From assembly GCA_026982655.1 (NCBI GenBank), contig JALSGO010000148.1, forward strand, positions 1 to 41,117: 41,117 nucleotides of DNA, given 5' to 3'. The translations under genes and the position numbers were made by a program. The notes beneath the pieces are model-generated. The model had not been told where the DNA came from. It did not search any database and worked only from the letters and a program-made list of their open reading frames with translations. This document shows, piece by piece, positions 13,177 through 24,572 of this stretch (position 1 is its first letter; every line of letters starts with the position of its first letter). The DNA comes from Candidatus Bipolaricaulota bacterium. GTDB lineage: Bacteria > Bipolaricaulota > Bipolaricaulia > RBG-16-55-9.

Positions 13177-13220
13177 GGTCTTGACAGGTCTTGACAGTTT
13201 GTCCTTCGTTGTCCTAAGAT
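13177..13220 (+). promoter_or_regulatory. Promoter with tandem -35 boxes for the first barrel-like gene
   Basis: GGTCTTGACA occurs twice in direct tandem (13177-13196), giving two TTGACA hexamers ten bases apart. The second (13191-13196) lies 18 bases before TAAGAT (13215-13220). The leader to the ATG at 13273 carries two AAGGAGG motifs. Confidence 0.6.
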
Positions 13221-13272: not shown

Positions 13273-14997
13273 ATGGACCGCCCAAGGAGGTGCAAGGGAT
13301 TTTTTGCTGTTGGAGTTGGTCTGATCGTTTTAGGGCTTGTGACGGCCCCCGCGTCGGAGGGTCGCGCTCAGGAACTCTCCGGGCGGATCACCGGAGATCT
13401 CACGTTCGCGCCCTTTTACGAGTTGCTCCTCCCTCAGTCGCCTTCGCTTCAGCCGATTCCGAAGACGGCGGAGCAGGCCCCTCAGCTCGTGGGGCTGACC
13501 ACCCAACTCGATCTGGGGCTGGACTTCCCCGGAATCGCCTTCGACGGGACGTTCCTGTTCAGCAACCTGGGTTTGACGCTCGCCTGGCTGAGCAGCGACC
13601 TTCGCTTCCTGGCACGGGAGGATCGAGGGGTGGATCGATCCGTTCAGAAGAGAACGATCGTCCAAAACGACTTTGTCAAAGTGTTGCGGGCCTTTCCCAG
13701 CCGCGTCCCCGCCGGAGGGACGTTCGAGGTGCTCGTGATCGTCGAGGCCCTGCAAGACCTTACGGGGACATCCCTTACGGTCACCGAAGAGTATCCGGCG
13801 GGGTGGCGGGTGGAGTTCATCGATCCCCTGGGAGCGCTCGTCGCATCGAACGCCGCCCGGTGGACGGTGTCGTTAGGGCTCCCCGGCTCGCGGGCCGTGA
13901 TCCGCTACAGCGTACGCGTCCCGGAAGAGGCGCTCGACACGGCGTCCATCCGCGGCACGATCGAGTCGGCCCTCTTCCCGCCCCTGCGCTTCGACGACGC
14001 CCTGGAGGTCCTCCCACCGGCTCCCCCGACGCTGCCGGGGCGCGTGCGCATCCGTCAAGACCTCCTCTTCTCGGCCGTGATCTCCGGAGGCGTGATCGTC
14101 GATCCCTTGAGCTTTCGGTTGTTAGCGCTGCACACCCAGCTCTTCCCTCAGCCGGGCCTGAGCCTGGCTAACTTCCTACGCTTCCAAAACGTCGGGACGT
14201 CGCAGACGCCCTCCCTCCGCTGGAGCAACCTAGTCCAGATCACGGGCCGAACGACAGGAGGGATGAGCGTACGGACCACGCTTCGCTTCTCCGACGAACC
14301 GGGATCCAACCCCTTGGCCTTCGACCGCGGTACCCTTCAGATCGGCGGCTTGCCGATCGCGCCCGGGTTGAGTCTCGGGCTCTCTGCAGTCTTCGACTCC
14401 CAGGCCGTCCTGCGCCTTCGCGCGCTCCCCGGCTGGACCGCCGAGTTCCCGGGCACCGAAGTACGCCTCCAGGGGGAGCTGCTCTTTACCGATCAGCCCC
14501 TCCGGATCGAGGACTTCGGCGTCGGCCTGCGGGTGCTCGGCGAACTCGTCGAAGGGACCCTACAAATTCGCGATTCCTACGGAACGCTCCTCTATGACAG
14601 CGGCGTCCCGGGCGACGGCATCGAGGAAGAACACCCCCTCGAGCTGGTCCGGCGAACGGTGCTGCTGCGCTTTACCCTAGGTCCGCTCGACGTCCAGTCC
14701 CTCAGCCGTTTCGGCCCTGTCTTGGCCGACGTCGACCTCGACGGCGCACGGGAGAAGTTGGCCGACGCCAAGCTGCTCCAACAGGAGGTGCGCGTGCAGC
14801 GCTTCCTGGAGGCGGTGCTCGTCTCGGCCCGTCTGCTCTACACGGCTCCCACGACCACCCTAGAACCTCCGACCCTCTCGTTGGCCGATGCCGAGTTGAC
14901 CGTCGTCCGCGGCCCGTTCCGCTGGGAGGCCGAAGCGCGCCTCTCCTTCGACCCGCTGGCCTTCCGTACCCGGCTGAGCTTCTCCCTGAGCTTCTGA
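13273..14997 (+). CDS. Exported beta-rich, barrel-like protein A (paralogue of 22839-24572)
   Basis: I do not recognise a named family. The 574-residue product has a signal peptide (hydrophobic about 10-25, cleavage near GRAQ-ELSG). An N-terminal beta segment ends in LGLTLAWLSSDLRF. A DUF11-like immunoglobulin-type region follows at about 120-250 (FPSRVPAGGTFEV, EEYPAGWRVEF). The long C-terminal half is rich in alternating hydrophobic strands and ends LSFSLSF, and a terminal phenylalanine is the usual mark of outer-membrane beta-barrels. Start at ATG 13273, with a Shine-Dalgarno at 13255-13262. The protein at 22839 shares the order of all these parts and whole motifs (NDFxxVLRxFPS, LQNVGTxQTPSxRW). 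The next gene is a propeller/PKD protein, so this may be its outer-membrane partner. That role is inference. Confidence 0.75.
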   Translation: MDRPRRCKGFFAVGVGLIVLGLVTAPASEGRAQELSGRITGDLTFAPFYELLLPQSPSLQPIPKTAEQAPQLVGLTTQLDLGLDFPGIAFDGTFLFSNLGLTLAWLSSDLRFLAREDRGVDRSVQKRTIVQNDFVKVLRAFPSRVPAGGTFEVLVIVEALQDLTGTSLTVTEEYPAGWRVEFIDPLGALVASNAARWTVSLGLPGSRAVIRYSVRVPEEALDTASIRGTIESALFPPLRFDDALEVLPPAPPTLPGRVRIRQDLLFSAVISGGVIVDPLSFRLLALHTQLFPQPGLSLANFLRFQNVGTSQTPSLRWSNLVQITGRTTGGMSVRTTLRFSDEPGSNPLAFDRGTLQIGGLPIAPGLSLGLSAVFDSQAVLRLRALPGWTAEFPGTEVRLQGELLFTDQPLRIEDFGVGLRVLGELVEGTLQIRDSYGTLLYDSGVPGDGIEEEHPLELVRRTVLLRFTLGPLDVQSLSRFGPVLADVDLDGAREKLADAKLLQQEVRVQRFLEAVLVSARLLYTAPTTTLEPPTLSLADAELTVVRGPFRWEAEARLSFDPLAFRTRLSFSLSF

Positions 14998-15003
14998 CCC
15001 CTC

Positions 15004-15031
15004 CACCCGCTGGGGAAGACCCTCCCGGGTG
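15004..15031 (+). terminator. Hairpin after barrel-like gene A
   Basis: CACCCG (15004-15009) pairs with CGGGTG (15026-15031) around a GC-rich interior. No T-run follows, so terminator function is doubtful. It may be an mRNA 3' end structure. Confidence 0.25.
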
Positions 15032-15043
15032 TGATCTCCACCC

Positions 15044-15073
15044 TTGACACATCGGTTTTCCCTTAGGTAGAGT
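15044..15073 (+). promoter_or_regulatory. Promoter for the first propeller/PKD gene
   Basis: TTGACA (15044-15049), an 18-base spacer and TAGAGT (15068-15073), about 50 bases before the ATG at 15125. Confidence 0.7.
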
Positions 15074-15124
15074 AAAAACAATTAGTTGCATTTAGGAACA
15101 CTCCCGAGACGGAGGGATCGCACC

Positions 15125-18100
15125 ATGAAGCGGGAACTGCGGCGGAGAGGCGGAGCGGGGAAGTGGGTCGTGCGCAGCTTGGCGCTGACCGGGCTGGGTG
15201 CGCTGTTGCTCGGCTTGACCGGGTGGCCTCAGCCGACGCGACTGTTGTACCTCCCGACGTCGGAGTGGGAGCGCGTCCTCGACGAGAAAGAGGACGTTGC
15301 CTACGCCGTAGCCGTGGATGCCTCGGGCGCGGCAGTGGTCGTCGGAACGAGCGAGATCGTCAAGTACGCTCCGGAGGGGACGACGCTGTGGCGTCGCACG
15401 CTGGCGGCACCCGCACGGGCCGTCGCTCTGGATCCACAGCTGGGAGACGTGCTGGTAGCCGGAGAAAACGGGTTGGAGAGGTACACGAGTGACGGTCGTC
15501 TGCTCTGGCATCGAGGAGGAGCCTATCGCGACGTGGTCTGGCCGGAGGAAGGCCCGATCGTAGCCCTGACGGCCGACGGCGTCTTGAAGCTCCTAGAGCC
15601 TGACGGACGCGTCCTCCGAGAGCTGGATTGGGGAGAAGCCTTCACCCCAGAGGCGGAAGCGCGGGCGCTGGCCCTTGGACCTTTCGGGCTGCGGGGAGTG
15701 GCCGTAGTGGGTGAGGGCTTCCTCGCGCTCTGGGAGATCGATCCCGACGCCGCGAAAGGGCGCGTGCAATGGCGGATCGACTACGTGGGAACGGCACGCG
15801 ATGCGGCCTTCACCTCCGGAGGGTTGCTCCTCGTCGTGGGCGATCAGGGAGTGGAGGCCTACGAGACGTCAACGGGCAAACGACTGTGGCGGGCGCCCTT
15901 CCCCGGGGAGAGCGAACCCCAAGCCGTCGCCACCGTTTCGCCCTCGTTCGAGGAAGCCCTGGAGCGGGGACTGACCGACGACGTGGCGTTCGTGGCCGGG
16001 GCGGTAAGGCGGAAGGGAGAGGAGGATTGGGACTTCCTCACGGCTAAGTACACGGCCACGGGCGAACTGCTTTGGAGCGTGCCGCACGACGGCGGCTACG
16101 GCGACGACGTCGCCTTCGGGGTCGCCGCTCAGCCCGGTCCGCCCAGCCGCATCTACGTGACGGGGTTTACCTCCCGGCCCCAGGAGGAGTCGGCCTCCTC
16201 CTCCAGAGGGGGTCCCCTCGATCGGGACTACCTGACGGTCGTCTACCGCGAGCGGGTCCTCCGCGCGCAGGAGGGAGGTCCCTGTCCGGGGCAGCGGCCC
16301 CAGGCGGGGTTTGAGGCAGAGCCCCCCGCGCCCGCGGTAGGGGAGTTCGTGCGGTTCTCCAACACCTCCACGGACCCCGACGGCTGGGTCGTCGGCTCGA
16401 CCTGGGACTTCGGCGACGGGATCACCTCCCAGGCCCACAGCCCCACCCACGTCTACGCCCGTCCCGGGGTCTACACGGTGACCCTCACCGTGGTGGACAA
16501 CGCGGGTTGCGTCGCCCAGGTCCGGCGCACGGTAGAAGTCAGAGAAGGACTCGGTCGCTTGGAAGGGTTGCGTTGGGAGGCCGAGCCGTTCGCGTCCGAA
16601 ATCACCGCGGACTTCGCCTGGACGGTCACCCGCGAGACCCGTCCCAACGGGTACCCCCTGGGGTACACGCCGCCTCCGGAGCCGACGGACCTCGACACCG
16701 TGCACTTCGCGGACCTCTCGACGTCTCGGGTCACCCAAGTCGAAGTACGCTTCGACGTAAGCGGGCTCGACCCCGACGGCACCGCCGTGCTCTGGGAGTG
16801 GGACTTCGGCGACGGCACGACCGCCACGTTCCCCAGTCCTCAATCTCCCGTGCACGTCTATGAGGCCCCCGGCAGCTACACCGTGCGCGTCACGATCACG
16901 GACGCCGGCGGGAGGACCCGCGTCGTCGAGGAGACGCTCACCTTTGCCTCCGACCCGCTACCCCTCCTCTCCTGGGAGTGGGACCTCGACGGCGACGCTC
17001 TCGTCGACGCTTTCGGGCAAAACCCGAGCTTCGACTACCCCGACGACGGGCTCTACCCCGTGACCCTGCGGGTGGAAGACGCTTTGGGCAACACGGCCTC
17101 CGTCACCCAGTCCCTTCGCGTCGTCAACGTCCCGCCCCAGCCGGACTTCTTATCGGGGTTCTTGGGGTTTCCGGAGCTCATCAAGATCGGGGGCTTCCTC
17201 TGGAGGCGGGAAGCGAATTGCACCCCTGATGCAAGGGTGGCGGGCACGGCACGCTACACGGTGACCATGCCCCCGGACTCCGGCGGGCTATCCCTTGCGG
17301 ATCTGTCTGCGGACAGCGAGCCGTGGGGGGCCGTCACGGGCGTGAGCTGGGCCTTCTCGGCGCCTGCGCCCGTGACGGTGCAGTATCTCCAAGGCAGCGA
17401 TGCCGACCCAGAACCCATCGTGCTGCTGCTCAACGACCTGGGGCGCTTCTACCGCGGCCCGGTCGACGTGACGCTCACGACCACGGACGACGACGGGGAC
17501 AGCTGGTCCACCACCCAAACGCTCTTCGTCGACAACATCCCGCCGTGCGCCGCCTTCGTCGCCGAGGTGACCACTAAGGCGTTGTCCGCCGCTTTGAACT
17601 GCGAGGTGTGCGTCAAGCAGTACGGCCGCGGCGACGAGTACGTGGAGACCAAGGCGGATCTGGGCCTCATCAGCCGCACGATCCGCCGCCCCAAGGGGAG
17701 CGAGAGCTGCCCCAAATTCAACGCGCTCTGCGGCCCTTCGGAGGCCGTCACCTACGGCTTCGAGGTGACGCTCTCCCTAAATGTGCGGGAGAGCCTCACC
17801 GTTACGGAGGCGGCCCCGCCGGGCTGGGGCATCGATTGCGCCACGGCCAAACTGCTCCCCGGCCTCAGCTGCACCCCCACCGAGATCAGCGGGACCCTGC
17901 TCAAAGGTGGGGGTGAGGTCGTCTACACCCTGAAGGCCCTGCCCGGGGTGACGGGCGGCCCGCACACGATCCAAGGGACGTTTAGCAGCGGGAAGCTCAC
18001 CGTCACCCTCGACTCCGACGTGGTCGTCTGCGATCTGGCGCGACTGGGGAAGCTCGAGTTCAGCGTGGACGCCCTAAACGGCGTCGAGTGGCTCACCCCC

Positions 18101-18364
18101 GCCGGGGGCGACTGGAACGGCGACGCGCTCGTGGGCTTCGACTGGTTCTTCACCGACAGCCTAGGGAACGCCTGGACGGCGACGGGCGAGCGACCTACGG
18201 GCGGCTTCTGCTCGGGAGGGCTCTGCACGCTGACCGCCGTGGACGTCGTCTGCGACGATACGGGCTGGCGCTACGACGTGGACGTCGAGCTGACGGTCGC
18301 GGACGAGGGCGGCGCCGTCAACACCCGCAGCGCCTCGCTCTCGTCCTCCGGCCCTTGCAGATGA
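15125..18364 (+). CDS. Large exported protein A: beta-propeller-like repeats, PKD domains, Cys-rich C-terminal domain
   Basis: A 1079-residue surface-type protein. After an arginine-rich start comes one hydrophobic segment (about 20-35), a signal peptide or anchor. Residues about 50-370 hold SBBP-like propeller repeats (EDVAYAVAVDASG, DWDFLTAKYTATGELLW, DRDYLTVVY). PKD domains follow, marked by WDFGDG or WEWDFGDG with VTLTVxD: a full one near 400-470, a second near 510-610, a shortened one near 610-670 (WEWDLDGD), and a degenerate one at about 690-810. The last 280 or so residues are cysteine-rich with a DUF11-like strand (TEAAPPGWGID). ATG at 15125 follows GGAGGG by eight bases. PKD domains usually mediate carbohydrate or protein contacts outside the cell. 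It is paralogous to the protein at 18759. Confidence 0.85.
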   Translation: MKRELRRRGGAGKWVVRSLALTGLGALLLGLTGWPQPTRLLYLPTSEWERVLDEKEDVAYAVAVDASGAAVVVGTSEIVKYAPEGTTLWRRTLAAPARAVALDPQLGDVLVAGENGLERYTSDGRLLWHRGGAYRDVVWPEEGPIVALTADGVLKLLEPDGRVLRELDWGEAFTPEAEARALALGPFGLRGVAVVGEGFLALWEIDPDAAKGRVQWRIDYVGTARDAAFTSGGLLLVVGDQGVEAYETSTGKRLWRAPFPGESEPQAVATVSPSFEEALERGLTDDVAFVAGAVRRKGEEDWDFLTAKYTATGELLWSVPHDGGYGDDVAFGVAAQPGPPSRIYVTGFTSRPQEESASSSRGGPLDRDYLTVVYRERVLRAQEGGPCPGQRPQAGFEAEPPAPAVGEFVRFSNTSTDPDGWVVGSTWDFGDGITSQAHSPTHVYARPGVYTVTLTVVDNAGCVAQVRRTVEVREGLGRLEGLRWEAEPFASEITADFAWTVTRETRPNGYPLGYTPPPEPTDLDTVHFADLSTSRVTQVEVRFDVSGLDPDGTAVLWEWDFGDGTTATFPSPQSPVHVYEAPGSYTVRVTITDAGGRTRVVEETLTFASDPLPLLSWEWDLDGDALVDAFGQNPSFDYPDDGLYPVTLRVEDALGNTASVTQSLRVVNVPPQPDFLSGFLGFPELIKIGGFLWRREANCTPDARVAGTARYTVTMPPDSGGLSLADLSADSEPWGAVTGVSWAFSAPAPVTVQYLQGSDADPEPIVLLLNDLGRFYRGPVDVTLTTTDDDGDSWSTTQTLFVDNIPPCAAFVAEVTTKALSAALNCEVCVKQYGRGDEYVETKADLGLISRTIRRPKGSESCPKFNALCGPSEAVTYGFEVTLSLNVRESLTVTEAAPPGWGIDCATAKLLPGLSCTPTEISGTLLKGGGEVVYTLKALPGVTGGPHTIQGTFSSGKLTVTLDSDVVVCDLARLGKLEFSVDALNGVEWLTPAGGDWNGDALVGFDWFFTDSLGNAWTATGERPTGGFCSGGLCTLTAVDVVCDDTGWRYDVDVELTVADEGGAVNTRSASLSSSGPCR

Positions 18365-18635
18365 GCCCCTGTCGGACCTAAACCATCTCGCTCGACAGGA
18401 GACAGGCGACAAGGCGAAGCGGGGTCGGACGCCCCATCGATCCCCGGCCTCCCCGATCGGGCTCGGTGTCCGACCCCGCCGGCGCTGCCCAGCCGCAGCC
18501 GAAACGAAGCTCCCTGAGCACCACCGCCTCCCCATCTCAAGGTCGAGGGCTACGGATCCGACGTTGAGATCTCGTCGTGCTCCCGAAAGCGTCGGCCCAG
18601 CTCGCCTTCCCGCGTCCTCGGCAACGAGAACGAGC
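18365..18635 (+). other. Intergenic region with a 12-bp inverted repeat
   Basis: No convincing reading frame. Arms 18419-18430 and 18468-18479 are perfect reverse complements (GCGGGGTCGGAC and its complement) enclosing 37 bases that themselves contain CCGATCGG. No T-tract follows, so it may be a non-canonical terminator, a structured RNA element or a repeat relic. Nothing else in this stretch could be assigned. Confidence 0.55.
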
Positions 18636-18663
18636 ATGATGAATATCATATCATCACTATGAT
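18636..18663 (+). promoter_or_regulatory. Overlapping dyads (ATGAT/ATCAT) upstream of a promoter, possible operator
   Basis: ATGAT (18636-18640) and ATCAT (18645-18649) form one dyad. ATCATA (18645-18650) and TATGAT (18658-18663) form a second, overlapping one. The block is AT-rich in GC-rich surroundings and abuts the -35 box at 18665, so it is well placed to bind a dimeric regulator. Confidence 0.45.
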
Positions 18664-18664
18664 C

Positions 18665-18694
18665 TTGACATAAACCAACTGTAAAAGGTAGTAT
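18665..18694 (+). promoter_or_regulatory. Promoter for the second propeller/PKD gene
   Basis: TTGACA (18665-18670), an 18-base spacer and TAGTAT (18689-18694), about 65 bases before the ATG at 18759. Confidence 0.72.
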
Positions 18695-18758
18695 GCAAAA
18701 GATAAGGGTGTAAACTCACAGTCCGGCACCCAACCCGAACCGGAAGGGGGTATCGGCC

Positions 18759-21700
18759 ATGGCGGTGCGCAGCGGAAGGCAGCGCTCGGCGTGCTGTACG
18801 ATCGGGTTCCGAGGAGCTTTGCTCATCCCCCTGGTGGCGATCTTCGCCCTGTTCCCTCCCGCCTCCCCCTTAAACGCTCAGGACGGCGGATCGGCAAACG
18901 CGAGGCTTACCGTGCCCGTCTCCCGCTGGGCGGATGACTTCCACGCCCAGGAGGAGGACGTTGCCTACGACGTAGCGGTCGACTTCCGCAACGAGGCGGT
19001 CGTCGTGGGCACCTCTCCGGTGGTCAAGTACTCCGAAAGCGGTGTGGTTCTGTGGACGGCCGACTACGGGGGCGTGGCCTTCGGCGTAGCCACCGACAGC
19101 TTGGCCAACGTCCTGGTGGCGGGTACCGCGGGCTTGGTGAAGTACGCCTCGGACGGGCGTCGACTCTGGACGGTGCCGGGGGCGTTTCGAGACGTCGCCG
19201 TCGGGGCGGGGATAGGGGACCTCCTCGTCGCGTTGCGGGTCTTGGAGGAAGGCGAGGGAGAGAAGGGGGATCCATCCCCTGTGGAGGTCTACACCCCGTC
19301 CGGAGAGCTGCGGGATCGCCTGGTCTATGAAGGGGAACCGGTCGCTGTGGCCTTCGGGCCGGAGGGACGGCTGGCCGTCGTCGTCGGACCGAGCGAGATC
19401 GTCCTGTACGACGTGGAGAGCGGTCGGAGACTCTGGACCACGCCCCCTCCGGGCGAACCGCGCGACGTGGCGGTGGACTCGGAGGGAGCGATCCTGGTGG
19501 TAGGGGATTTCGGGATTGCAAAATACGGGCCCAACGGGGTGCGGGAGTGGCAGGAATTCTTCCCCGGCGAGGCCTACGCAGTCACTTCCCTGCCCCAGCG
19601 CCTCGCCTCGCCCGGAGGCGAGGCGGGGCCCTCCGGCGACTTCGTGCTCGTGACCGGGGCCCTCTACGGCGGGGGCGACTGGGACTTCCTCACCGCCAAG
19701 TACAACGCGCGAGGGGACCTCATCTGGGAGGTGCGGTACGACGGGGGCTTCGGCGACGACCGCGCCTACGGGATCGCCATCAGCCGCAAGGGCTTCCTCT
19801 ACGTTACGGGGATGACCACCCTGCCGACGGAAGCCTCCCCGCGCACCCGATCGGAGCCCGCTCCCCTCAGCCGGGATTACTACACGGTGCAGTACGTCGA
19901 GAAACCCCTACCGGAGGTCGTAGGGGCTCCTGAGCCGGCCTGCCCTGCGGGGCGGACGTCCCCGCAAGCGGAGTTCACCCCCCAACCGGATCTGGCCGTG
20001 GTAGGGGAGCCCATCCGATTTCGCAACAACTCCTGGGATCCCGATGGGTACTTGGTGGCTTGGATCTGGGACTTCGGCGACGGGACCATCAGCACAGCGT
20101 GGGAGCCCGTCCACACCTATGGACGCCCCGGCATGTATCGGGTGACGCTCACCGTGGTGGACAACGACCGCTGTGTGAGCGAGGTCTTCCGCGAGATCGA
20201 GGTCGGAGGCCGGGCGTTGGAGGTGCGCTTCCGCTGGGAAGAGGTGGTCCGCGGGGAGCTGCGGGCGGACTTCGACTGGACCGTGGTGCGCGAGGTCTAC
20301 GGCTCCTACCCTCCGGGCTTCGCCCCCACCGAGGCGACCGCCCTAGACGAGGTGCGCTTCGTCGATCGCTCCACCGCCGGTGGAGCAGGCGGCGTCGTCC
20401 GATTCCAAGCGGAAGTGGAAGACTTCGATGGGGTGATGGCGGAGTGGATCTGGGACTTCGGCGACGGGACGACCCTCTGCTGCGATGACCCGAGTCCGGA
20501 ACACGAGTACGCCGCTCCCGGGACGTACCTCGTTACCCTCACCGTCACCGATGCAGAGGGGGTGACCGCCACCTACGAGGACACGGTCGTGGTACGCGGC
20601 GGAGCCAATGAAATTGTAGAGTGGGATTGGGACTTCGGTGACGGGACCTTCGCCGCCCTCCCGGACCCCGCCCACCGATACCTCGACGACGGGATCTACC
20701 CGGTGACCCTCACCGTCTACGATGCTCTAGGAAACTCCGATTCGGTGACCAAGCCCGTCCCGGTCGTCAACGTCCCTCCCATCGCTCGTTTCTCCTACGT
20801 CGAGGAGCGGATCCCCGGCGAGATCGTGGTCGATTTCACCTGGAGCGTTGCGCGCGAGGTCTACGGCTCTTACCCTCCGGGCTTCGCCCCCACCGAGCCC
20901 ACCGACCTAGACGACATCCTCTTCGAGGATCGCTCGACGCTGTCCCCGGGTCGGGTGGAGTTCTCCTTCCTCGAGGCGGCGGAGGACGTAGACGGCAGCT
21001 TGGTCGCCTGGGAGTGGGACTTCGGTGATGGGACGATCTCCACCGATCCGAACCCCGTGCACGAGTACGCCGCTCCGGGGACGTATCGGGTCACGTTGCG
21101 GGTCCGGGACGACGATGGGGCCGAGTCCCTCTTTACCCGCGAGGTCACCGTGCCCGAGCTGGCAACGGAGATCGTCGCCTGGCGCTGGGAGTTCGGGGAC
21201 GGCAGCCCTACGGGAGGCTCTACGTTACAAAACCCGATCCATCACTACTTCGATGATGGGACCTACCCGGTCCGGCTCACCGTCTACGACAACTTGGGGA
21301 ACTCGGCCTCCCTGACCCAACCGATCACGATCCTCAACGTCCCCCCGGTCGCCGACTTCGCCGGGACGTTCCTCGGGCTGGAGGGATGGATCCGCACCTG
21401 TGCGGACTTCGGTCTGCCGTGGGAGGACCGGATCGGGGGAGTAGGCACCGCCTGCGGGGACCCGACCCTCCCGCTCGACGCCGGTCCGATCGAGCTCTCG
21501 GACCTCTCCTACGACAGCGAGCCGTGGTTCTCCATCAGCAGCTGGCAATGGACCTTGGGAGGCGTCGTCGTCATGTGCGTGTCGACGCCGAACTGCACCG
21601 CCGAGCCTTTCCCCCAGATCCTCCTCTTCTCCGACGACGCGCTCTCCCTCCTCTACCGCGGTCCGGTGGAGGTGACCCTCACCGTCGAGGACGACGACGG

Positions 21701-22679
21701 AGCTCCGGACACCCGTGTCGAGACCCTTACGGTAGCCAACATCCCGCCGTACGCGGTCTTCGATTGGGACGCGTCCGGTGGGGGGATCGGCGGCGGTCCG
21801 GCCTCCCCTCCGAGCCGGGACCCCCGTCGACCGAAGCCGACCCAGCTGGGGGGCTTCGCCAGCACCGCTTGCGATGTTTGTGCCTCCCTGTACGGGGAGG
21901 GAGACGCCTACCGCGAGGTCTCCACGGGTGGAGTGACCGTCTTCCGGCAGATCTTCACCGAGTGTGACTTCACGGGAAACCGCGCCGTCTGCGGCATCTG
22001 GAACGCTCTGAGCCTCGGGATCTACGTCGTCGTGACGATCTCCGGCCCTTCCGGGGTGGTGGAGATCGCCGAAACGGCTCCGGCCGGCTGGACCTTCAAC
22101 GACTGCTTCGATTACGACGCTTCCTTCAACCCCGTCAACGCCATCACCTGCGGGGGGACGGAATCCCAGCTCCTCGGGACCGTTGACTTGGCTGCGCTGG
22201 GAGGACAGTACACCCTCGAGTACAGCCTCTACCCTCCGGACGGCGTGACCGCAGGGCCCTATCCCGTATCGGGTGCTTTCGTCGTCGATGGGGTCCCGGT
22301 AGACCTCCTAAGCGAGGTCGTCCTCTGCGATCGGGTGGACGTCAGCCTGGACCCCCTTCTCCTATGGGCCTATGACGACATAGACGCGCAAGATCTCTTG
22401 GGGATCGCGGCGATCGACCCCAACGGGGACCCGGTAAGCTACAGCTGGAGCTTCGGACCGCTGGGAACGGCTACCGGTCAAGCCCCCGAGAGCGCGGATT
22501 GCCTCGCCGGGGATTGCGCCTTCTTCGTGGAAGGCCTTGTATGTGCTTACGATGGGATCGACTGGATCTGGAACTACGACCTTACGATTGAGCTGGTGGT
22601 GCAGGACTCGGTCGGGGCTTCGACGACGGCCTCGGCAACCCTGCCCTTCCAAGGCCTCTGCAATATCGGGGGCTTCTAG
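18759..22679 (+). CDS. Large exported protein B: beta-propeller-like repeats, five to six PKD domains, Cys-rich C-terminal domain
   Basis: A 1306-residue paralogue of the protein at 15125. A signal peptide (hydrophobic about 20-40, ending LNAQ-DGG) leads to SBBP-like propeller repeats at about 55-380 (EDVAYDVAVDFRN, DWDFLTAKYNARGDLIW, SRDYYTVQY). PKD units follow with WDFGDG near 430, 565, 625, 750 and 810 (the last WEFGDG), then a degenerate one near 860-1000. They alternate between full-length and shortened forms. A 188-residue module starting at REVYGSYPPGFAP is present twice. The last 280 or so residues form the same cysteine-rich domain as in protein A (ACDVCASLYGEGD, ETAPAGWTF, VVLCDR). 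GGAAGGGGG precedes the ATG. Likely a cell-surface or envelope protein; ligand unknown. Oxidised disulfides outside the cytoplasm are expected from the paired cysteines. Confidence 0.87.
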   Translation: MAVRSGRQRSACCTIGFRGALLIPLVAIFALFPPASPLNAQDGGSANARLTVPVSRWADDFHAQEEDVAYDVAVDFRNEAVVVGTSPVVKYSESGVVLWTADYGGVAFGVATDSLANVLVAGTAGLVKYASDGRRLWTVPGAFRDVAVGAGIGDLLVALRVLEEGEGEKGDPSPVEVYTPSGELRDRLVYEGEPVAVAFGPEGRLAVVVGPSEIVLYDVESGRRLWTTPPPGEPRDVAVDSEGAILVVGDFGIAKYGPNGVREWQEFFPGEAYAVTSLPQRLASPGGEAGPSGDFVLVTGALYGGGDWDFLTAKYNARGDLIWEVRYDGGFGDDRAYGIAISRKGFLYVTGMTTLPTEASPRTRSEPAPLSRDYYTVQYVEKPLPEVVGAPEPACPAGRTSPQAEFTPQPDLAVVGEPIRFRNNSWDPDGYLVAWIWDFGDGTISTAWEPVHTYGRPGMYRVTLTVVDNDRCVSEVFREIEVGGRALEVRFRWEEVVRGELRADFDWTVVREVYGSYPPGFAPTEATALDEVRFVDRSTAGGAGGVVRFQAEVEDFDGVMAEWIWDFGDGTTLCCDDPSPEHEYAAPGTYLVTLTVTDAEGVTATYEDTVVVRGGANEIVEWDWDFGDGTFAALPDPAHRYLDDGIYPVTLTVYDALGNSDSVTKPVPVVNVPPIARFSYVEERIPGEIVVDFTWSVAREVYGSYPPGFAPTEPTDLDDILFEDRSTLSPGRVEFSFLEAAEDVDGSLVAWEWDFGDGTISTDPNPVHEYAAPGTYRVTLRVRDDDGAESLFTREVTVPELATEIVAWRWEFGDGSPTGGSTLQNPIHHYFDDGTYPVRLTVYDNLGNSASLTQPITILNVPPVADFAGTFLGLEGWIRTCADFGLPWEDRIGGVGTACGDPTLPLDAGPIELSDLSYDSEPWFSISSWQWTLGGVVVMCVSTPNCTAEPFPQILLFSDDALSLLYRGPVEVTLTVEDDDGAPDTRVETLTVANIPPYAVFDWDASGGGIGGGPASPPSRDPRRPKPTQLGGFASTACDVCASLYGEGDAYREVSTGGVTVFRQIFTECDFTGNRAVCGIWNALSLGIYVVVTISGPSGVVEIAETAPAGWTFNDCFDYDASFNPVNAITCGGTESQLLGTVDLAALGGQYTLEYSLYPPDGVTAGPYPVSGAFVVDGVPVDLLSEVVLCDRVDVSLDPLLLWAYDDIDAQDLLGIAAIDPNGDPVSYSWSFGPLGTATGQAPESADCLAGDCAFFVEGLVCAYDGIDWIWNYDLTIELVVQDSVGASTTASATLPFQGLCNIGGF
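20288..20897 (+). repeat. Internal duplication in protein B (46-bp near-identical cores 564 bp apart)
   Basis: 20288-20333 and 20852-20897 match at 45 of 46 bases. They encode the same REVYGSYPPGFAPTE stretch, each heading a module of one full plus one shortened PKD unit. A diverged single copy of the same module lies in protein A (TRETRPNGYPLGYTPPPEPT, near 16630). Confidence 0.85.
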
Positions 22680-22744
22680 TCGATCGATGAAGACCGGAGA
22701 CAAGGAGGGAACGAAGCGGGCCGTAGAGACGGCTCCTTCAGGAC

Positions 22745-22775
22745 TTGACAACGTCGCAGGTCCTTGGGGTACAAC
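22745..22775 (+). promoter_or_regulatory. Possible promoter for the second barrel-like gene
   Basis: TTGACA (22745-22750) and TACAAC (22770-22775) with a 19-base spacer, longer than ideal. Read-through from the PKD gene, 159 bases upstream of the ATG, is the alternative. Confidence 0.4.
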
Positions 22776-22838
22776 CTAAGCAACACGAGGGGGATCCTCT
22801 CGGGACTACGCTTAAAAAAGGTGCAAGGAGGCAGGACC

Positions 22839-24572
22839 ATGACCGATGGGAGGGAGGCGTCGCGCACGACGACTCGCACGACCGCTGCTTCTGCCTGGGG
22901 GCTTCCGATCCTGGGAGCAGCCCTTCTCCTGGGAATAGCCTTCTCCGCGGGAGGACAGGAGCTATCGGGGCGCTTCGGACTCGAGGCCGACTGGGAACCG
23001 CTCTCAGGGTTCTTCCTCACGGATCCGGATGCGGGGACGGTGAACCCCTTCCCTCCGGAGTCGGAGGCAAAGCCGGGGGTGTGGGGACTGACTGCACAGC
23101 TGGACGTAAGCGTGCAGTACCCCGCCATAGGGACGGACAACACCTTTGTGTTCACGGGCTTGGGGTTGGGACTGGCTTGGCTGAGCTGGGAAGCAAACTT
23201 CCCCCGGGTAGAGGAGCCTCAAGCCACCCCGAAGCGGACCTTCCGCCGTAACGACTTCATCCAAGTGTTGCGAACCTTTCCCTCCGTGGCCCGGCCGGGA
23301 GAGACCTTTGAGATGACGATCTTGATCGAGGCCCTTCAAGACCTCCCGCCGGGGGTGGAGGTCACGGTGCAAGAGGAGCTGCCGTCGGGTTGGCTCATCG
23401 ACCCGATCGAACCGGAGGCGACCCGGCTGAGCCGTGAGGCAGCCCGCTGGCGGGTCGAGCTGGGAGCGGCGGGATCCCGGGACACGATCCGGTACCTCGC
23501 TTCGGTGCCGACGGACGCCGCCGTGGGGCGGGTCGCGATAGAGGGGAGGGTTCAATCCGATCTCTTCCCCGATCTCGACTTGAGCGATACCCTTGAGGTG
23601 ATCGAGGAGCCGCCTACGCTGCCGGGACGGATTCGCGTACGCCAGGATGTGATCTTCGCGCAGCGGGTCAGCGGCGGGATGCTCCTCGACCCTATTGCCT
23701 TCCGGACAGCCAACCTCCGCGTAGAAGCGCTTCTGCAGCCGGGTCTACGGCTCACCAACTTCCTGACCCTTCAGAACGTGGGCACGCAACAGACCCCCTC
23801 GTTTCGCTGGCGCGACACGGTCACCGTCCAAGGCCAGACCTCCGGGGGAGTCAGCACCCGTCTGTCCCTGCGCTTCCGCGGAGAAGAGGACCTCCGGATG
23901 CTCTTCGATCGCGGATCTCTACAAATCGGTGCGCTTCCCCTCCTCCCCGACGTCGCCCTCCGCCTGCGGGCGGGCTTCGACGTGTCCCGGGTCAGCGAGC
24001 TTCGCCTTAGCCTCAACCACGTCCGTCCCGTCGCGAACGCTCTGGGACGGGTGACCCTTGACGTCGCCCTGCGGGACGACCTCACGCTCGAGGTCCTCAG
24101 CCTGAGCGTCCGGCTCAGTTCCCGGATCGACGGGATCTTCCTCGTGGACGACCGCTACGGCCCCCTCCGGTTCGACGGGGACGACGACGGCGTGGAAGAG
24201 ACCCACCTCGCGCTCGTCCGCCGCCAGGTTCAACTGCGCTTTGCGATCGACAAGCTGGATGTTCGTTGGACGACCCTCTTCCGCCCCGTCCTAGACGATG
24301 TCGACTCCGATGGGGCTCGAGAGCGCATCTCCCGGGGCAAGCTCGTCCGACAGGAGATCCGCGTACGCAGGTCCCTTAAGGACGTCGTCTTTCAAGGCCA
24401 TCTCCTCCTCGCCGAGGACGACCCGACCGCACCGGTGGCCACCCTCTCCCCGGCCCGGGTCCGACTGGGAGCCACGGTCCTCCGTCCCGGCTTGCGCCTC
24501 TCGGCCCAAATGACCCTAGAGCTCCGGCCGCTCCGCTTGGAGACGACGTTCGGCTTCGCTCTGAGCTTCTGA
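22839..24572 (+). CDS. Exported beta-rich, barrel-like protein B (paralogue of 13273-14997)
   Basis: A 577-residue paralogue of protein A at 13273, with the same architecture. The signal peptide has a hydrophobic part at about 20-38 and cleavage near GGQ-ELSG. An N-terminal beta segment (GLTAQLDVSVQYP, LGLGLAWLSWEANF) is followed by a DUF11-like middle (FPSVARPGETFEM, EELPSGWLID). A strand-rich C-terminal half contains LTNFLTLQNVGTQQTPSFRW and ends FGFALSF with terminal phenylalanine. ATG at 22839 has AAGGAGG seven bases upstream. It follows propeller/PKD protein B on the same strand, so each large PKD gene is adjacent to one barrel-like gene. An outer-membrane location is inferred from the C-terminus and strand pattern. 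No known porin or autotransporter family is recognised. Confidence 0.75.
   Translation: MTDGREASRTTTRTTAASAWGLPILGAALLLGIAFSAGGQELSGRFGLEADWEPLSGFFLTDPDAGTVNPFPPESEAKPGVWGLTAQLDVSVQYPAIGTDNTFVFTGLGLGLAWLSWEANFPRVEEPQATPKRTFRRNDFIQVLRTFPSVARPGETFEMTILIEALQDLPPGVEVTVQEELPSGWLIDPIEPEATRLSREAARWRVELGAAGSRDTIRYLASVPTDAAVGRVAIEGRVQSDLFPDLDLSDTLEVIEEPPTLPGRIRVRQDVIFAQRVSGGMLLDPIAFRTANLRVEALLQPGLRLTNFLTLQNVGTQQTPSFRWRDTVTVQGQTSGGVSTRLSLRFRGEEDLRMLFDRGSLQIGALPLLPDVALRLRAGFDVSRVSELRLSLNHVRPVANALGRVTLDVALRDDLTLEVLSLSVRLSSRIDGIFLVDDRYGPLRFDGDDDGVEETHLALVRRQVQLRFAIDKLDVRWTTLFRPVLDDVDSDGARERISRGKLVRQEIRVRRSLKDVVFQGHLLLAEDDPTAPVATLSPARVRLGATVLRPGLRLSAQMTLELRPLRLETTFGFALSF

Follow-up and report, generated by a model that had tools for sequence, protein, structure and literature searches.

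A1, A2, B2 and B1 are four open genes on the + strand at positions 13273-24572 of the window, which is the whole 41,117-nucleotide stretch of contig C148 from a Bipolaricaulota genome bin of 2.08 Mb (Table 1). Close homologues in public genomes are found in Candidatus Bipolaricaulota MAGs. An earlier sequence-only reading had described four consecutive + strand genes in this order, and both the frames and their coordinates stand. The same reading called the cluster mirrored, which is true of the gene order (barrel-large, large-barrel) but not of the DNA, where nothing is inverted. The mirror is limited to gene order because all four genes lie on one strand, and this also rules out an inverted duplication. 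Upstream of the cluster are SUF, GatB and ABC importer genes, and downstream are GlmS and PGK. These flanking genes are mostly housekeeping and different in each genome, which rules them out as parts of the system.

Table 1. Genes, protein domains and promoter-like boxes of the cluster (positions in the window)
Feature	Position	Strand	Description
Promoter-like box 5' of A1	13191..13220	+	TTGACA-18-TAAGAT
A1, barrel-like protein	13273..14997	+	574 aa, signal peptide, C-terminal ...SFSLSF
Ig-like (NEW3/DUF11-like) domain in A1	13645..14013	+	aa about 125-247, AF2 pLDDT about 88
Promoter-like box 5' of A2	15044..15073	+	TTGACA-18-TAGAGT
A2, large exported protein	15125..18364	+	1079 aa; propeller, three PKD, Cys-rich C-terminal module
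Cys-rich C-terminal module of A2	17120..18361	+	conserved Cys; only beside these barrels
Promoter-like box 5' of B2	18665..18694	+	TTGACA-18-TAGTAT
B2, large exported protein	18759..22679	+	1306 aa; propeller, about six PKD, Cys-rich C-terminal module
Cys-rich C-terminal module of B2	21333..22676	+	conserved Cys; only beside these barrels
Box 5' of B1	22745..22775	+	TTGACA-19-TACAAC, weaker
B1, barrel-like protein	22839..24572	+	577 aa, signal peptide, C-terminal ...GFALSF
Ig-like (NEW3/DUF11-like) domain in B1	23238..23606	+	aa about 134-256, AF2 pLDDT about 88

The cluster holds two pairs of like proteins, as had been proposed. A1 and B1 align over their full length with 42% identity (E=1e-128), and A2 and B2 align with 35-44% identity across almost their entire length (E=7e-119). 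A TTGACA box lies upstream of 8/8 cluster genes in three genomes, compared with 4/57 control genes. Since every cluster gene has its own box, the genes may be transcribed separately.

A1 and B1 have the features of outer-membrane barrels. Both end in phenylalanine, and their final residues alternate between hydrophobic and polar. The predicted strands alternate in the same way, to a degree that 0/5000 shuffles reach, so the earlier description of barrel-like proteins with a C-terminal phenylalanine is borne out. AlphaFold models of A1 and B1, of moderate confidence (AF2 mean pLDDT 63-64), have about 20 strands, mostly of 9-14 residues, outside an inserted Ig-like domain. The sequence-only reading had said that a soluble or inner-membrane prediction with no barrel would speak against it. 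That reading is rejected here on the alternating strands, the terminal phenylalanine and the lack of a hydrophobic helix past the signal peptide. The Ig-like domain of B1 matches CLIPPER domain 9ifr in Foldseek (TMt 0.76), and the domain is missing from the wider-family relatives of A1 and B1 described below. Two conserved acidic loops in A1/B1, DDDGVEETH and DVDSDGARE (window 24174-24323; B1 aa 446-495), resemble calcium-binding loops. A further exported protein of about 750 aa, found phylum-wide, combines one PKD domain with two NEW3-like ones that are related to the A1/B1 insert (L056 3442-5694; L057 6193-10789).

Searches with A1 and B1 against Pfam and NCBIfam return no family above chance, with no match to Omp85, POTRA, the usher family or a TonB-dependent receptor, and none to PorP/SprF in NCBIfam. 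The top Foldseek matches of A1/B1 are mainly outer-membrane barrels, with a whole-protein query TM of 0.31 or less. For A1, the leading matches are ushers, barrels into which an Ig-like plug is inserted. This would suit a role in which the barrel itself exports its partner, working like two-partner secretion. The dedicated and exclusive adjacency of the two genes would also suit such a role, as would the failure to find a T9SS translocon, though the control for that search was silent. Export by the barrel is nevertheless very unlikely, given the low TM-scores and the lack of an Omp85, POTRA or usher family match, and the modelled resemblance to ushers may reflect just a barrel plus a beta-sandwich.

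A2 and B2 each have a signal peptide, followed by a propeller of PQQ/SBBP type (aa 41-385 in A2, 48-395 in B2) and PKD matches in three stretches in A2 and six in B2. The C-terminal third is a module of about 415-450 aa, with about 10 Cys positions common to all or nearly all six homologues. Domain searches and the conserved Cys agree with the earlier account of exported proteins with propeller, PKD and Cys-rich parts. Most of the extra length of B2 over A2 comes from the duplication of a PKD unit of about 565 bp. Searched against the PDB, the Cys-rich module had chance hits only. There is no recognised surface-sorting domain in A2/B2 and no lipobox in their signal peptides, and Pfam and NCBIfam searches found no type B or CHU_C C-terminal domain, no TPS domain and no peptidoglycan-binding domain in either protein.

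The propeller of A2 matches PQQ_2/BamB (E=1.6e-8), and both barrel models have four strands before the inserted Ig-like domain, which would place the insert on the periplasmic side. It is conceivable from these features that A2/B2 are periplasmic scaffolds with a BamB-like propeller, lying between barrel and wall. This is quite unlikely, as a wall-binding domain is what the searches failed to find in A2/B2, and the B2 propeller best matches SBBP. Cys-rich modules and PKD arrays are also typical of surface proteins.

The barrel and the large gene are co-inherited. Among 100 genomes of the phylum, the full-length A1/B1 family occurs only in G000, G062, G064 and G059, and the A2/B2 C-terminal module in exactly the same four. 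G060 has a large homologue at a contig edge. In total, 4 genomes have both, 1 has the large gene only and 95 have neither (Fisher p=1e-6). All barrels (5/5) and all large genes (6/6) are adjacent to a partner. This narrow family is known from four genomes of a single order; frameshifts interrupt its genes in G064 and G059, and contig ends truncate the copies in G062 and G060. The exclusive pairing suggests a mode of anchoring proteins at the cell surface that is specific to the lineage. The sequence-only reading had proposed a survey of related genomes, with independent occurrence in most of them as the outcome that would count against a system. The survey instead finds the A1/B1 and A2/B2 families together, with their genes side by side wherever both ends can be seen.

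The gene order is A1-A2-B2-B1 in the window, B2-A1-A2 in G064, B2-B1 in G062 and large-barrel in G059. The internal order is constant where it can be seen, with barrel-large in the A lineage and large-barrel in the B lineage. G064 has A1, A2 and B2 split by frameshift (L052 11827-11857), and no B1 was found there; sequencing error or decay may account for this. Trees of the barrel family and of the large family both split A from B, with few taxa and G059 on a long branch. They uphold the earlier claim that the pair was duplicated, and the A and B lineages co-diverged after the duplication. A narrow sample of four genomes from one order, and a promoter-like box for each gene, would fit functionally unrelated neighbours brought together by chance or hitch-hiking. 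This is highly improbable, since the pair stays together despite different flanking genes in each genome and a change of order from A1-A2-B2-B1 to B2-A1-A2.

The phylum has a widespread, undescribed family of outer-membrane barrels, in which A1 and B1 are divergent members with an extra Ig-like domain. This wide family was reached from a weak match in G050 and consists of proteins of about 365-570 aa. When A1/B1 and their orthologues are left out of the profile, it still recovers them at E of about 3e-7 to 5e-6 (3e-7 for A1 and 8e-7 for B1), and 0/1004 shuffled or reversed controls match. With the A1/B1 group included in the profile, the family is found in 84/100 Bipolaricaulota genomes, with at most 16 matches per genome. 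A C-terminal phenylalanine is present in 95/107 wide-family genes vs 15/463 others. For 27 family members, Pfam gave no match to PorP/SprF at E<=1. Sequence searches of Pfam, NCBIfam and the PDB name no barrel family for A1/B1 or the wide family, and the wide-family profile matches no chain among solved structures by sequence.

Some of the wide-family barrels also have large neighbours. Among 80 barrels with both neighbours visible, in genes from our own gene caller, 12 have a large co-directional exported neighbour (>=600 aa, within 200 bp), compared with 18/357 control genes (p 0.003, which is optimistic because the genomes are related). Tight pairings are found in G054 (2 bp, 1859 aa), G059 (1 bp, 1730 aa), G063 (14 bp, 1832 aa) and G047 (48 bp, 1724 aa). 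The G054 partner (L116 7883-13462) carries DUF11 repeats as well as a type IX-like C-terminal domain, CHU_C. This domain is ruled out as proof of a T9SS, as SprA was not found (with a silent control) and A2/B2 do not have the domain. In family f3, a recurring operon combines an exported protein of about 1340 aa, a protein of about 170 aa and a barrel, and in several genomes the genes overlap by 4 bp. Operons of this type lie at L168 7002-12798 and also in L162, L166, L169 and L172, and their large protein ends in KLVILR or similar. The genome that contains the window has a further wide-family barrel with a DUF2062/DUF748 (AsmA-like) protein 25 bp after it (L175 7662-11190). Because most wide-family barrels are unpaired, the basic role of the family is probably porin-like, and pairing is probably a specialisation. 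The earlier proposal of a two-component system therefore holds in the co-occurrence and adjacency of the A1/B1 and A2/B2 families, but not for the wider family, where most barrels have no large partner.

An Omp85 gene is present in 29/30 genomes, and the single Omp85 of the window's genome lies elsewhere. One SLH protein per genome, of the SLH-coiled-coil-TM type, is found in 22/30 relatives. In seven genomes among those examined, the SLH-coiled-coil-TM gene directly adjoins wide-family barrels, often in tandem; such loci include L055 5051-10705, L121-L124, L107 and L157. A 2018 genome study of a Bipolaricaulota relative left one vs two membranes undecided (PMC6092417). Most genomes have one Omp85 and one SLH tether, and together with the barrel family this argues for an outer membrane like that of Thermotoga. 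The barrel family also supplies candidate proteins for the outer membrane of Bipolaricaulota.

Glycan binding is frequent for propeller and PKD modules, and A1 is divergent from the ABC importer. Both points could suggest an uptake complex that works like SusC-SusD, with A1/B1 as nutrient channels and A2/B2 as surface capture subunits. The SLH tether beside wide-family barrels is also consistent with uptake, as it recalls the Thermotoga OmpB porin (PMC3387000). Uptake by the pair is unlikely, since the A2/B2 signal peptides show no lipobox and, in both G062 and G059, the ABC importer is not a neighbour of the pair. Unlike SusC/SusD, the pair has no match to a TonB-dependent receptor, SusC or SusD domain.

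With a probability slightly better than even, A1/A2 and B1/B2 are diverged cognate pairs, and each barrel is devoted to anchoring its own large surface protein in the outer membrane. BamA would insert A1 and B1 into this membrane, where each would form a barrel of about 20 strands that bears the Ig-like domain in a single turn. A2 and B2 would pass the inner membrane via Sec and then be displayed outside. Each would be held there by its own barrel, probably via the C-terminal module with its conserved Cys, and would extend its propeller and PKD array outward to bind polymers or neighbouring cells. The binding of partner to barrel, the surface location, the role of the C-terminal module and the adhesive function are inferred. 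It is possible, though rather unlikely, that the pairs belong to a display system specific to Bipolaricaulota. In such a system, some members of a private barrel family would carry an Ig-like domain, and each of these would both export and retain a single cognate large protein, independently of Omp85-type two-partner secretion, ushers and a T9SS.

The anchor reading can be compared with several known systems. The C-terminal phenylalanine with alternating hydrophobic residues and the porin-like barrels resemble OmpA1-OmpB of Thermotoga (PMC3387000), as do the wide-family relatives beside an SLH-coiled-coil-TM gene. A1/B1 differ in having a large propeller/PKD protein in place of an SLH neighbour. 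The wide family is also like OmpM of diderm Firmicutes, a Terrabacterial outer-membrane barrel tied to SLH tethering, whereas A1/B1 have no SLH domain (PMC10628300). Two-partner secretion (type Vb) similarly pairs a dedicated barrel with a single large exported protein, but A1/B1 have no Omp85/POTRA match, and A2/B2 are propeller/PKD proteins with no TPS domain match. The Ig-like domain inserted in a barrel turn recalls the chaperone-usher proteins FimD/PapC, from which A1/B1 differ by the lack of a usher family match, the low TM-score and the lack of chaperone or pilin genes nearby.

The sequence-only reading knew of no named system with this layout, but the SprB-SprF pairs of Bacteroidota are a named analogue (PMC9143113, PMC12618676). 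The SprF barrel binds SprB and is its proposed anchor, and in F. johnsoniae 9/12 type B proteins adjoin an SprF-like gene (PMC9143113, PMC12618676). CHU_C matches are found in 42/100 Bipolaricaulota genomes with no detected SprA, a search that found SprA in 0/100 of these genomes and was also silent in the positive control genomes. A1/B1 and A2/B2 are set outside the SprB-SprF system because A1/B1 have no PorP/SprF match and carry an inserted Ig-like domain, and A2/B2 lack the type B C-terminal domain. Like the SprB-SprF pairs of the Bacteroidota T9SS, they combine a barrel gene with an adjacent large modular exported protein, in several diverged pairs per genome. By analogy, A1/A2 and B1/B2 may work like SprB-SprF pairs, and the paired genes offer a testable case for the view that barrels dedicated to anchoring one large surface protein also evolved outside Bacteroidota.
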